DNA of 45,454 nt from an uncultured Candidatus Saccharibacteria bacterium. GTDB lineage: Bacteria > Patescibacteriota > Saccharimonadia > Saccharimonadales > Saccharimonadaceae. This document shows, one piece after another, positions 33,358 to 37,825 of this stretch. The notes beneath the pieces are model-generated. The model was not told the DNA's origin. It was given only the letters and a program-made list of their open reading frames with translations, and searched no databases. Both the position numbers and the translations under genes were made by a program. Numbering within the stretch: position 1 is the stretch's first letter; every line of letters begins with the position of its first letter. The stretch covers positions 1 to 45,454 of the forward strand of contig CAMBYK010000002.1 of NCBI GenBank assembly GCA_945872155.1. Reading direction: 5' to 3'.

Positions 33358-33386
33358 TTGACAAAAAGGTAATGGTTTTGTATATT
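33358..33386 (+). promoter_or_regulatory. promoter of a candidate ncRNA
   Basis: TTGACA (33358-33363), a 17-bp spacer and TATATT (33381-33386), one of the closest matches to consensus in the window. No protein gene follows on the + strand. Confidence 0.75.
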
Positions 33387-33392
33387 CTAGTT

Positions 33393-33535
33393 AAGCTGAT
33401 ACGCTTCGCAGGGGTTCCGCTGAACTAGAGTGCGGAGACTCATTAAAAACAAAAACAGCAGATTAAAACAAAACAATGTGCCCCAGGGTGGGCGCGCGTC
33501 AGCGCAAAGAGACCGCAAAGCCGGTCTCTTTCTAG
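33393..33535 (+). ncRNA. candidate structured small RNA, about 140 nt
   Basis: The only sizeable gap in this gene block has a strong + strand promoter and a terminator-like hairpin at its end (33506-33531) but no convincing ORF. The transcript can fold: GCTGATACGC (33395-33404) pairs with GCGCGTCAGC (33494-33503) over ten positions with one mismatch, GGGG (about 33411-33414) pairs with CCCC (33481-33484), and TCCGC/GCGGA closes a hairpin. An A-rich single-stranded stretch (33443-33476) lies between. It does not match tmRNA, RNase P RNA or SRP RNA signatures that I know; a 6S-like role is possible. A 19-codon ORF (ATG 33475, stop 33532-33534) lacks a ribosome-binding site. Confidence 0.55.
33506..33531. 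terminator. hairpin between the ncRNA and obg
   Basis: A perfect 10-bp stem AAAGAGACCG/CGGTCTCTTT with a 6-nt loop. It lies 5 nt after the obg stop (minus strand) and at the 3' end of the candidate ncRNA (+). T-runs are short on both sides, so terminator strength is uncertain; it could serve both units. Confidence 0.6.
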
Positions 33536-33536
33536 T

Positions 33537-34994
33537 TTAATAATCTTCTAACAGGGTAAATTCTTTACCGGCGATATTGATGATGCTCTCTGGCCTGGCA
33601 CCGCGAGTGGTGAGCTCGGCTTTGATGCCGAGTTTTTTCATAATATCGCGCAAGCGGTTGACACTGGCGTAGTTGGCAAGGTCAGTGCGGCGGGCAAATT
33701 TTTCGATTTTGGCACCAGAGACCACAAATTTGCCGTCTTCGGTCTCTGTGACCGTCCAGGCGTCGGCATAAGCTTCTTTTTTGAGCTGAATGACAGGGAT
33801 TTCTTTATGGCCAGCAGCAGAATCGTTTTTCTGTCGGACGCTCCTCGCGCCCGTCGCCAGTGGGCTCGTCGCTGCGTCCTCGTCGTGACTGCGGGAGCCC
33901 GACAGCAAAAGATTCTGTTGCTGGCTCTCCGCATTAGAAAACTCTGACGACAAACGATTCTGCTGTTGGTCTGTCTCGACGGAAAACTCTGACGACAAAC
34001 GATTCCGCTGTTGGTCTTGCCGAAGTACGACCTCTTTCAGGGCGCGAAGCAATTCCTCTATTCCCTGGTGAGCAGCTGAGGAAATGGCAAAAACTCTGGC
34101 ATCGGGGTTTTGAGCCAAAATGGCAGAAATTTGCAAATTGATAATGTCTTGGTCGAGACCTTCTGTCTTGGTGAGGGCAACAATCTCAGGGCGAGCAGCC
34201 AAATCAGAATACTGCTCAAGCTCGGCGCGGATGGTGCGATAGGCTTGACCGGCGTCGTCGTTGTAGACATCAACCAAGTGCAATATCACGGCGGTGCGGT
34301 CGACATGACGCAGAAAAGCGTGGCCGAGACCCTTGCCCTCGGAGGCGCCAGCAATCAAACCTGGAATATCAGCGATTAAAAGATCTTTTTTGTCAACAGT
34401 GGCCACGCCTAAGTTGGGCGTGATAGTAGTGAAGGGGTAGTCGGCAATTTCTGGCTTGGCATTAGAGACTACGGAAAGAAAAGTGGATTTGCCGGCGTTG
34501 GGCAGACCTACCAGACCGACGTCAGCCAAGAGCTTGAGCTCAAGCTCGGCTTCGAACTCTTCGCCGGGCTCACCAACTTCGGCGATACGCGGAGTCTGAC
34601 GCACAGAAGACTTGAAATGAGCATTGCCAAAACCGCCATCGCCACCCTGAGCAACTACAGATTCTTGACCGTGCGCGGTTAAATCAGCGATAACCTGGCC
34701 GTCGCGCTTGACTACGGTACCGATCGGCACTTCCACAATCAAATCTTGTCCAGAGCGGCCGGCGGAACGTTGCCCGGAGCCGTTTTTGCCTGGCTGAGCC
34801 TTGAGCTCGGGGTTGAAACGAAAATCTAACAGGGTGTTGGTGTCTTTATCGGCGCGGAAAATAATAGAGCCGCCCTTGCCGCCGTTGCCGCCGTCTGGGC
34901 CGCCTTTGGGTATATAAATTTCATGGCGAAAAGAGACGGCACCATCACCGCCTTTACCAGCTTTAAGCATAACTTTAGCGGTATCGACAAACAT
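33537..34994 (-). CDS. obg: GTPase Obg with repeat-rich inserted linker
   Basis: Obg is an essential GTPase linked to 50S assembly and stress. The 485 residues have the glycine-rich Obg domain (AGKGGDGAVSFRHE, GGPDGGNGGKGG), the G domain (P-loop GLPNAGKST, switch DYPFTTITPNLG, DIPGLIAGA) and a C-terminal OCT domain (about 410-485). Between G domain and OCT lies an insertion of about 75 residues made of 15-residue repeats (QQQNRLSSEFS) and a Ser/Ala/Arg segment encoded by a long DNA palindrome. The specificity motif reads ALTKTE instead of NKxD. The ATG is 7 nt after TATAAT; probably leaderless. Confidence 0.95.
   Translation of the reverse strand: MFVDTAKVMLKAGKGGDGAVSFRHEIYIPKGGPDGGNGGKGGSIIFRADKDTNTLLDFRFNPELKAQPGKNGSGQRSAGRSGQDLIVEVPIGTVVKRDGQVIADLTAHGQESVVAQGGDGGFGNAHFKSSVRQTPRIAEVGEPGEEFEAELELKLLADVGLVGLPNAGKSTFLSVVSNAKPEIADYPFTTITPNLGVATVDKKDLLIADIPGLIAGASEGKGLGHAFLRHVDRTAVILHLVDVYNDDAGQAYRTIRAELEQYSDLAARPEIVALTKTEGLDQDIINLQISAILAQNPDARVFAISSAAHQGIEELLRALKEVVLRQDQQRNRLSSEFSVETDQQQNRLSSEFSNAESQQQNLLLSGSRSHDEDAATSPLATGARSVRQKNDSAAGHKEIPVIQLKKEAYADAWTVTETEDGKFVVSGAKIEKFARRTDLANYASVNRLRDIMKKLGIKAELTTRGARPESIINIAGKEFTLLEDY
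33811..33924. repeat. palindromic insertion inside obg
   Basis: The ends CCAGCAGCAGAATC.. (33811-33837) and ..GATTCTGTTGCTGG (33899-33924) are imperfect inverted copies, and the inner GCTCC-CGC/GCG-GGAGC (33840-33848 with 33891-33898) continues the stem. The 114-bp unit is a multiple of three and keeps the obg frame. It resembles in-frame palindromic elements known in Rickettsia, but no relationship is shown. Confidence 0.7.
33937..34017. repeat. tandem repeat inside obg
   Basis: Two 36-bp copies (33937-33972 and 33982-34017) differ by one base and are spaced 45 bp apart, encoding repeats of a Gln/Asn/Ser-rich unit. Their ends share the GATTC(T/C)GCTGTTGG core with the arms of the adjacent palindrome. 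Confidence 0.85.
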
Positions 34995-35021: not shown

Positions 35022-36110
35022 TTAACGCGAATGAATGTATTTGTATTTACTCCAAGTGGAGTATTCCCAGGTGGCGGATCCTACACGGTTGAAGCCAGCG
35101 ATGCCGTTCATATCGCTCACTACTATACTGGTAATCTGACCATTATCGTCGTAGTTGACTTTATCTACAATACCAACGTGGCCATAGTAATAGCCCGAAG
35201 CGTCAATCTGGAAAACAGCGCCGGCGGCAGGAGTGCGGTTGACCGGGAAACCGAAAGCTGCAGCAGCATCGTCCCAAGTGACAGCGTTGCCGAGGTTGCG
35301 TGGTAGCACATAGCCACCACCCATATTATAACGACGACCCCAGGCATAATAGGTACACCAGCCTGGCGCCATAGGATTTGAAGCAGAATAGAAGGCAGTG
35401 CCAAAGGAATAAGATGGGGCTGGGCGGACATATTCTGGGCGCTCAACAACCGGCAAGACACCCCCAGGCAAAACAATTTTGACACCGGCATTAAGGGTTT
35501 GGTCCTGTTCAAGGTCGTTGAAGGCAATAATCTGCTCGGACGAAGACTGATATTTGGATGCGATTGAGTCCACGGTGTCTCCGGCCTTGATGGTATAGAC
35601 GATGCCCGGAACGCTTGGGAGATAAAGTACGGTACCAACAGCAAGATCAGTGCTCTTAAGGCCGTTGGACCAACGAATTTGGTCTGTCGTGAGACGATGA
35701 GCGACAGCAATGGCGTGCATGGATTCGCCCTCTTTTACGGTGTAGGTATATACCTGACGTACCAAGGAAGCAGTATTGGTAATTTCTGGCTTTTCAATGC
35801 GTTCGGCGGCGGTTTGGCCGATTTTGTCCATAATCGCCATTGAGGTGTAGTTGTTGCTAAGCTCATTGGCACTCTGGAGGCCAAAACTCTCGGCTACGTT
35901 TGCAACAGCGTAAAACTCTGTAAGTTGACCAGCCGAAACATTGAAGCCTGATTTGGCGATAGTGGCCACATCGAGCTGAGCAACCTGACGCACCTGATTC
36001 TTATCTTTTGAGCCGACAAAAATAATCGCCAAAATTACACAGAAAGTGGCAAGATAAGGTAGGAATTTTTTGATTGATTCTTTAGTAGATTTTTTGAGTT
36101 TTTTGCTCAT
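35022..36110 (-). CDS. LysM-CHAP cell-wall hydrolase, membrane anchored
   Basis: 362 residues. A basic start and membrane helix (about 16-33) anchor it; two LysM domains (about 121-165, YTVKEGESMHAIA; 171-214, YTIKAGDTVDSIA) bind peptidoglycan; a C-terminal CHAP amidase/endopeptidase domain has Cys252 (PGWCTYYAWGRR) and His311 (YYGHVGIVDKV). The ATG at 36110 overlaps the stop of the RuvX-MltG gene as ATGA, so a five-codon longer start is rejected. It sits directly behind a lytic transglycosylase, which suggests joint wall remodelling. Confidence 0.93.
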   Translation of the reverse strand: MSKKLKKSTKESIKKFLPYLATFCVILAIIFVGSKDKNQVRQVAQLDVATIAKSGFNVSAGQLTEFYAVANVAESFGLQSANELSNNYTSMAIMDKIGQTAAERIEKPEITNTASLVRQVYTYTVKEGESMHAIAVAHRLTTDQIRWSNGLKSTDLAVGTVLYLPSVPGIVYTIKAGDTVDSIASKYQSSSEQIIAFNDLEQDQTLNAGVKIVLPGGVLPVVERPEYVRPAPSYSFGTAFYSASNPMAPGWCTYYAWGRRYNMGGGYVLPRNLGNAVTWDDAAAAFGFPVNRTPAAGAVFQIDASGYYYGHVGIVDKVNYDDNGQITSIVVSDMNGIAGFNRVGSATWEYSTWSKYKYIHSR

Positions 36111-37825
36111 AATGCAGCTTGACAATACTCCTTGCAGAATTTACGGATATTGTATTCATGTCCAGAGTATGTGGTACTATAATACATCTTTCCGTCGTCC
36201 CCTGTCAAGAAAAAGAGGTATTTGCTAGGGGTGGGATGAGCTACGGCCAAGAGAGCGGAGAGGCCAGGATTAGAAATGGCGCCGCAAGGCAATCCAGTGT
36301 GCTTGCGGGTATTGTAGCAAGAATCGTAGGCCAGAACTGCAGCATTATTGTTGTAAATAGTGCGATTAGGATCGATTAAGTCCACGGCGTATTTTGCAGT
36401 GACATCGCTGCCGAGCGTCTGCCCGGCATGCAGGCGATTAAGAAAAACTCCCGCCACCATGGCCTGGTCGGCCGGTCTGGCCTCTTTTTGGACCACCGAA
36501 GCAAGCCTAATGCCATCCCAAAGGGTGAAACCTTGCTCTTTTAGAGCGGGAATGATGTTGTTTTGGTTCACCTTGGCTTGGAGCTGGTCCAAAGTGCGTT
36601 TAATGATATTTTGCACGGTTTCGCCTTGGAAAAATTCATAAGTGTCGCCAAAAATGTAGCCCTCAAGAGAAGCGTCGGCCGGTTTGTCTTTTAAGATGGG
36701 GTGGTCGTATTTGGCCGCAAGTGCAGTGTCGATGACTAGAGAATTATAGCCCAGTTTAAGCAGTTTGGCCTTGAAATCGACAAGAGTTTCGCCGGGTAGA
36801 ATGGTAAGGCGAAAAACGTTTTCAGCTGCGCCATTTTTTGTAATCGTCTCCACAATTTCCGCAACGGTCATAGTAGTACGCAGTTTAAAAACACCAGTTT
36901 TGAGCTGGGCGGAGAGGTTGTTCACTCGCAGATAAATTTGCAGGGCCAAAGACGAGTGTATGAGCTTGGCAGCGGCGAGCCGATCGGCGATGTTTTGCGC
37001 GGATTCATTGGCAGTGATGCTGAAATTTTGAAAGGCGCAGGGGCCGGAACTCGCGGAAGAACAGTCTTGGTTGCGCGAGACGGGGCCGAGCGAAATTTGA
37101 TACCAACCAAAAACGCCCACGCCAGCAGTGGTAAGCAAGGCAAAAATGGCGATAAAAATGAGCAGAATCAGGCGTTTGACACGATTGATTGGCCGATGAT
37201 ACCAGCGATGACGAGTTTTGGAAGAAGATTTTTTGGGCATAGTGGATTTAGAGTTTTTTTTAGCGTTTGGTTTAGTGGCCGGAGTAACCGAGGTCTGGCT
37301 CATAGCAGATGACTTATCGTCTGAGCTGAGACTCTTGGCAGAAAGGTTAGGTTCCTCGACAGGAGAACTAAAGTTCTTGGCAGAAGAGTTGAAGCTCTTG
37401 ACAGAAAAACTTTCAATGAAATCAGTCAAAATAATGACAGCGGCTTCAGCGTCGATCTGGCCAGATTTGGCCAGATTTTGACGGGCTTTGTTTGAGTGAG
37501 TTTTTTGTGCTTTAAGGCGACTTTTTGCCTCGACGGAAGTGAAAGATTCGTCTTGAAAGCGGATTTTAGCCCCTGGAATGGCCTTCTCGAGGCTCTGAGC
37601 AAAAACCTTGGTGTAGGCCGCCTGCGCGGTTTCCTGCCCTAAAACGTTGCGAGGAAGGCCCAAAACGAACAAATTGGTGTGATTTTCTTTAGCTAAGCGG
37701 GCAATTTGTTCAAATTCGGTGCCGTCCACGCTAACGGTGCAAACAGGAGTAGCGATGCGCACGCCGGTATCGGCCTTGGCTACGCCAATCCGCTTGGTCC
37801 CAACGTCGAGACCGAGAATTTTCAT
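36107..37825 (-). CDS. RuvX (YqgF)-MltG fusion protein
   Basis: 572 residues joining two normally separate proteins. Residues 1-138 are a RuvX/YqgF Holliday-junction resolvase-like RNase H fold with the acidic residues Asp7 (LGLDVGTKRIGVA), Glu93 (DESFTS) and Asp125 (GQIDAEAAVIIL). Residues 139-215 are a Ser/Lys-rich linker with SAKSLSS-type repeats. A membrane helix spans about 218-242. Residues 265-572 are MltG/YceG endolytic transglycosylase with Glu448 in LASVVQKEA, then FLNRL and the LPCGAISNPGLSALLA motif. Topology would put RuvX inside and MltG outside. The genes are often neighbours in bacteria; fusion is unusual. Its ATG overlaps the upstream stop by 1 bp. Confidence 0.92.
   Translation of the reverse strand: MKILGLDVGTKRIGVAKADTGVRIATPVCTVSVDGTEFEQIARLAKENHTNLFVLGLPRNVLGQETAQAAYTKVFAQSLEKAIPGAKIRFQDESFTSVEAKSRLKAQKTHSNKARQNLAKSGQIDAEAAVIILTDFIESFSVKSFNSSAKNFSSPVEEPNLSAKSLSSDDKSSAMSQTSVTPATKPNAKKNSKSTMPKKSSSKTRHRWYHRPINRVKRLILLIFIAIFALLTTAGVGVFGWYQISLGPVSRNQDCSSASSGPCAFQNFSITANESAQNIADRLAAAKLIHSSLALQIYLRVNNLSAQLKTGVFKLRTTMTVAEIVETITKNGAAENVFRLTILPGETLVDFKAKLLKLGYNSLVIDTALAAKYDHPILKDKPADASLEGYIFGDTYEFFQGETVQNIIKRTLDQLQAKVNQNNIIPALKEQGFTLWDGIRLASVVQKEARPADQAMVAGVFLNRLHAGQTLGSDVTAKYAVDLIDPNRTIYNNNAAVLAYDSCYNTRKHTGLPCGAISNPGLSALLAVAHPTPSKYLFFLTGDDGKMYYSTTYSGHEYNIRKFCKEYCQAAL

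Follow-up and report, generated by a model that had tools for sequence, protein, structure and literature searches.

What occupies the gap beside obg in this stretch of Saccharibacteria DNA (45,454 nt, hereafter the window)? Saccharibacteria are tiny, parasitic epibionts with genomes of ~1 Mb or less. A preliminary description of the sequence had proposed an unassigned small RNA gene at this position. Our comparison of sequences confirmed a gene for a structured RNA of ~140 nt in the gap, predicted to be independently transcribed.

The predicted promoter lies on the + strand at 33358–33386 and consists of TTGACA (33358–33363), a 17-nt spacer, and TATATT (33381–33386). It had been described as near-consensus, and a promoter scan of the window bore this out, with 11 of 12 bases matching the consensus. 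The RNA region, including the −35 and −10 boxes, was conserved in 34 of 36 genomes of the same genus. Loss of the promoter in close relatives had been named as an observation that would speak against the gene; instead, all 32 complete genus copies retained it, scoring at least 9/12 (mean 10.75, compared with 6.6 in shuffles), with a spacer of 17 nt in 30 copies and 18 nt in 2. Because the distance from the end of the −10 box to RNA base 1, the start of a conserved AAGCTG, was 6 nt in 32/32 genus copies, 33393 is the likely transcription start. Together with the match to a covariance model, which spans 33393–33503, this distance predicts a transcript of ~140 nt (33393–33535, + strand), made up of a core at 33393–33503 and a terminator.

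The end hairpin in the preliminary description was recovered as a 10-bp helix (33506–33515 paired with 33522–33531) with the loop CAAAGC, followed by CTAGTTTAAT. This terminator-like hairpin (33506–33531, + strand) sits in the 33-bp interval that separates the RNA core from the obg stop codon; obg is convergent and lies outside the RNA gene (33537–34994, − strand, stop end at 33537). A terminator-like hairpin was present 3′ of 29/32 genus copies, compared with 30% of shuffles, although the hairpin itself varied within the genus. A stricter terminator scan omitted it because its T-run is imperfect. The sequence was foldable, as claimed (−46.5 kcal/mol), but the z-score against shuffles was modest (z = −2.5). 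A single sequence was therefore insufficient to settle the matter, and the proof of structure is comparative.

The preliminary description had placed a closing stem at 33395–33404 and 33494–33503. These coordinates were exact: the 5′ strand of this helix, P1 (GCTGATACGC, 33395–33404, + strand), pairs with the 3′ strand (GCGCGTCAGC, 33494–33503, + strand), with a single A·C mismatch in the window at 33401/33497. The genus alignment (A1) contains long invariant stretches. A clear compensatory pair was found in P1, occurring as U-A in 25 sequences, A-U in 5, and U-G in 2. Across the order, both-side changes were seen at 9 of the 10 pairs. Compensatory changes of this kind in the closing stem were what the preliminary description had said would support an RNA.

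A second long-range helix, P3, was an addition to that description. Its 5′ strand, GGGG (33411–33414, + strand), pairs with CCCC (33481–33484, + strand). The 32 genus sequences contained GGGG/CCCC (26), CGGG/CCCG (2), or AGGG/CCCU (4), with no exceptions; an automatic count on A1 gives C-G as the sole second P3 type because MAFFT misplaces the AGGG cases. P3 covaried at 6/6 pairs across the order, where variants included GCGGCG/CGCCGC, GGCUCUU/AAGAGCC, GGGUUCA/UGAACCC, and CGGGUUU/AAACCCG.

We quantified covariation in P1 and P3 in an alignment of 79 homologs (A4) fitted to these two helices. In this alignment, 89% of P1+P3 cells were paired, and 15 of the 16 pairs had changed on both sides, so the absence of covariation that would have counted against the gene was not what we observed. 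Compensatory cells numbered 186, compared with 52 in shuffles, and the covariation score was 0.413, compared with 0.140. None of 500 shuffles reached the observed paired cells, compensatory cells, pair types, or covariation, and only 2 of 500 reached the observed number of pairs with double changes. When the registers of P1 and P3 were slid as a control in A4, the signal collapsed.

As A4 had been built on the P1+P3 structure, we also ran an alignment-free pairing test, in which the duplex energy of a sequence's own two strands was compared with that of strands swapped between sequences, with segment limits taken from A4. This yielded z-scores of −13 for P1, −13 for P3, −4.9 for a third helix, P2 (short forms of the RNA), and ~0 for control segments. 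P2 is formed by TTCGCA (33405–33410, + strand) and TGCGGA (33431–33436, + strand), with an optional extra pair, 33404/33437, that competes with P1. Its mean probability was 0.07–0.18 under nearest-neighbor folding without pseudoknots, a value to be read with the fact that such programs cannot score a pseudoknot.

Since the 5′ strand of P3 lies inside the P2 loop, P2 and P3 together would form an H-type pseudoknot. Furthermore, because P2 starts within the P1 5′ strand, the inner P1 pairs and P2 are alternatives. At locus L080, where P2 is GUGCUA/UAGCAC, one change is compensated in P1 and P2 alike. On this comparative evidence, the predicted P1 and P3 pairs are well supported, whereas the putative P2, and hence the pseudoknot, is supported but less firmly. 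Alternation between P1 and P2 may act as a switch.

Two other pairings were tried and rejected. A local 3′ hairpin chosen by RNAalifold, GUGCCC/GGGCGC, was invariant in the genus and showed no covariation across the order (z = −1.1), and a nested extension of P1 with GUGGG was not preserved by the 5′ partner sequences. Within the genus, A1 also indicated an extra hairpin, P4 (33417–33435, + strand). The P4 partner strand is kept by nearly all other genus members, but in the window it reads ACTAGAG rather than the standard AGTGGAG, leaving P4 either broken or re-paired as CCGC/GCGG. The P2 of the window is still paired through one compensatory double change relative to the genus alignment, from A-U to G-C. 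As the window copy lacks the P4 partner strand, this genome is an atypical member of the family.

No convincing open reading frame had been noted in the gap, and this remained the case. A small frame from the AUG at 33476 (MCPRVGA...) is broken by indels of 0–2 nt in relatives, and a GUG-initiated frame in the short forms is shifted by 0–2-nt indels as well. The shifted frames, combined with the compensatory changes in P3, indicate that the RNA is non-coding.

How widely the RNA occurs was examined with two models. R1, derived from the genus, matched 171 of 295 genomes of the order, once per genome with a single exception. R2 was built on short forms with P1+P3; these forms, found outside the genus and its sister genus g32, are usually 77–97 nt long. 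It matched 31 of 32 sampled genomes of the order, always in one copy (weakly in G049), and gave no matches in five genomes from other orders of the class. Elsewhere in the phylum, R2 produced marginal matches (E 1e-4 to 1e-2) in 15 of the 348 genomes searched outside the order. Given the rough, shortly calibrated E-values and the number of genomes searched, we judged these 15 matches to be noise. Exact-pattern matches in named GTDB genomes came from Saccharibacteria, with a few labeled as Patescibacteria group, Nomurabacteria, or unclassified bacterium. These matches place the order within Saccharibacteria (TM7). Records bearing homologs include ruminant-gut, oral, and groundwater sources. A viral origin was also considered and dropped, as the short pattern had no match in viral contigs. 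These searches lend good support to a family that appears single-copy and order-wide in Saccharibacteria and does not convincingly extend beyond the order. Like P3, the order-wide distribution goes beyond the preliminary description.

Two segments of the RNA stayed unchanged although unpaired. The A-rich unpaired stretch noted previously was present as a single strand crossing the pseudoknot (33443–33479, + strand), with an AAACAAA-type motif in 79/79 aligned homologs. Within the genus, AAACAGCGGAUUAAAACAAA in this strand was almost invariant; across the order, AAA(C/U)AAA alone was conserved. A second motif, GGGTGGGCGCG (33486–33496, + strand), contains a GGTGGGC part that never varied among the aligned homologs and stays unpaired in the structure supported by covariation, with GGUGGG lying between P3 and the P1 3′ strand; the final three bases of the motif are part of P1. 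The invariant parts of the RNA are AAA(C/U)AAA and GGUGGGCGCG. Frozen unpaired AAACAAA and GGUGGG segments alongside fast compensatory change in the stems point to a molecule defined by its shape plus contact sites.

On balance, we favor a stable, structured RNA of housekeeping type that would act in trans and be recognized either by a protein or by some larger machine. This non-coding RNA would be transcribed constitutively from its own promoter and belong to the standard equipment of the order. P1 closes the molecule, and the P2 loop would pair downstream through P3 to form the pseudoknot. A rigid P1/P3 core would expose a contact surface made up of the A-rich strand and the GGUGGGCGCG segment. 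The partner, bound via the A-rich strand and GGUGGG, might be a protein, the ribosome, or RNA polymerase; alternatively, the RNA may affect translation or RNA polymerase without a dedicated protein. As P2 shares bases with inner P1, two conformations would be available. We infer that the RNA is transcribed and stable, that it acts in trans and binds protein, and that it may switch shape.

The long conserved unpaired strand, almost invariant in the genus as AAACAGCGGAUUAAAACAAA, in an RNA with its own promoter and terminator, could also suit an antisense regulator that acts in trans by pairing its A-rich strand with mRNAs near their starts. We regard this as unlikely: an A-rich seed pairs weakly, and only AAA(C/U)AAA is conserved order-wide. 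In addition, when the region around the translation starts of 376 orthologs was searched for duplexes in two nearly complete genomes, the best combined rank (3.09) was no better than that of shuffled queries (0.69–5.29), and a sequence probe of the called ORFs of two genomes revealed no Hfq or CsrA homolog.

The genomic neighborhood bears on whether the RNA could instead be a cis-acting leader, such as a riboswitch or attenuator, of a downstream gene or tRNA-Ala. Pseudoknots with A-rich loops are known in riboswitches, a terminator hairpin lies 3′ of the RNA, and many short-form genomes have tRNA-Ala downstream in the same orientation. However, the next gene in the window, obg, is convergent; within this one genus the neighbors are obg, trmD, uvrB, or recG in either orientation; and tRNA-Ala is found at a distance of 60 nt or 3 kb, or is missing. 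These convergent arrangements largely refute the leader, which we consider highly improbable. In other genera and families, the neighbors include an RRM gene, ligA, and a downstream tRNA-Ala(GGC). Because the neighbors vary and the downstream gene is convergent in the window and elsewhere, the RNA is not dedicated to a single downstream gene.

In many genera and families, tRNA-Ala(GGC) lies downstream on the same strand, often within ~100 nt, with ligA upstream (for example at L283, L286, L288, L297, L299, L076, L081, L133, and others). This arrangement is probably ancestral within the order.

The RRM gene adjoined the RNA at 15 short-form loci (L167, L173, L180, L185, L191, L196, L197, L200, L213, L224, L237, L238, L239, L245, and L300), being divergent at 13, including L300 from another family, and downstream at 2. 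By hand count, a small single-RRM protein was present in 226 of 295 genomes of the order but missing from the genus of the window and from all 50 long-form genomes (41 from that genus, 8 from g32, and G117). These patterns would fit an RRM protein that binds the A-rich strand, with the RRM-less lineage having gained an extra RNA hairpin instead; as a sub-case, such an RRM-specific RNP partly overlaps the reading as a protein-bound structured RNA. We nevertheless find this partner doubtful, and quite improbable overall, since adjacency may reflect inherited gene order and the same hand count found seven short-form genomes of the same family that likewise lack the RRM gene. The long form belongs mostly to one clade, and its correlation with the RRM may therefore represent a single event. 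The absence of the RRM from long-form genomes is suggestive of a link, yet a single loss within one clade would explain it as well. An RRM protein as an obligate partner was rejected, as it is missing from 57 RNA-bearing genomes of the family.

Comparison with known RNAs agreed with the earlier statement that no RNA class could be recognized. Rfam 15 gave no matches at the locus at gathering thresholds, and with all families and E up to 10 the only matches there were chance ones of microRNA and enterobacterial types (E 0.1–10). A search of twenty distant homologs against Rfam likewise returned no family, only nearby tRNA genes and sub-threshold chance matches. No description of the RNA was found in the open-access full text in PMC. 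Measured against Rfam 15 and the open literature searched, the family is new and fits no described family, although we claim no new mechanism for it. Being order-wide, single-copy, and covarying, with a promoter, usually a terminator, and no Rfam match, it answers to the lineage-specific RNA that had been suggested.

The other suggestion, a divergent 6S RNA, was not supported. Like 6S RNA (RF00013), the RNA is small, single-copy, and lineage-wide, with its own promoter and a closing stem. It differs in being shorter, in having a P1/P3 pseudoknot crossed by an A-rich strand rather than a bubble between two arms, and in lacking an Rfam match. RF00013 had no match in the genome itself, so the 6S role could be vacant; however, the 6S model misses most of 14 control genomes, and its silence is therefore weak evidence that 6S RNA is absent. 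A strongly diverged 6S-like regulator that binds RNA polymerase would suit a single-copy, order-wide RNA with a strong constitutive-type promoter. We consider it very unlikely, because the covarying fold (P1+P3 with P2 crossing P3, 77–125 nt) is a closed pseudoknot, in contrast to a symmetric bubble that resembles an open promoter and is flanked by two arms, and because no Rfam 6S match appeared at the locus even at E up to 10.

Bacterial SRP RNA (RF00169) resembles this RNA in size (~80–140 nt) and copy number (one). Its model, with helix 8 and a GNRA-type loop, had no match at the locus or in 13 genomes of the order. The Ffh M domain (PF02978) was found in 0/13 of these genomes compared with 14/14 controls, and the SRP54 GTPase (PF00448) gave only short P-loop matches and no full domain in the genomes of the order tested. 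SRP RNA, the Ffh M domain, and a full SRP54 GTPase were consistently absent from the genome of the window (G000) and 12 further genomes of the order. SRP loss is known in many CPR bacteria (PMC4508563, PMC8080830). With no Ffh to bind it and SRP loss known in CPR, an SRP RNA in disguise was rejected.

Both tmRNA (RF00023) and RNase P RNA (RF00010) are likewise single-copy housekeeping RNAs, and tmRNA also has pseudoknots; unlike the RNA described here, both are encoded elsewhere in the genome (at G000:C24:3877-4229 and G000:C24:7339-7680, respectively). The locus has no tRNA-like ends, acceptor stem, or tag reading frame, and neither an RF00010 match nor a P4 core of RNase P RNA. In H-type pseudoknot riboswitches (SAM-II, preQ1-II), a hairpin loop pairs downstream and an A-rich strand crosses. 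The RNA shares this loop-downstream pairing and A-rich crossing strand, but it is larger, has its own terminator and a long-range closing stem, and shows no attached downstream gene and no Rfam match.

The setting, cells without SRP and with no recognized 6S RNA, allows a bolder form of the trans-acting housekeeping reading, which we put forward only tentatively. The RNA could represent a new housekeeping class, essential or nearly so and universal within this one order, working in an RNP together with a protein of its own or binding the ribosome or RNA polymerase directly, perhaps switching between a P1-closed state and a P2 pseudoknot. Its one-copy persistence in streamlined genomes that lost SRP suggests that the RNA is likely important to the cell. 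With the family model, annotators also gain a stable RNA gene overlooked by present Rfam-based pipelines. The mechanisms by which Saccharibacteria differentiate into host-attached and swarmer cells are unknown according to a recent review (PMC11665869). Because Saccharibacteria are transformable, and transposon and RNA-seq data exist (PMC10633639, PMC11665869, PMC10768705), the RNA is directly testable.

Two protein-coding genes in the window showed unusual features. In Obg (33537–34994, − strand), the GTPase domain is separated from the C-terminal DUF1967 domain by a non-standard insert, in which the near-repeats QQRNRLSSEFS..., QQQNRLSSEFS..., and QQQNLLLSGS... represent an in-frame repeat expansion. 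In addition, a single ORF at 36107–37825 (− strand) combines RuvX, a Holliday junction resolvase (residues 1–138), with a YceG/MltG-like domain (residues 268–562), the two being joined by a Ser/Lys-rich linker.
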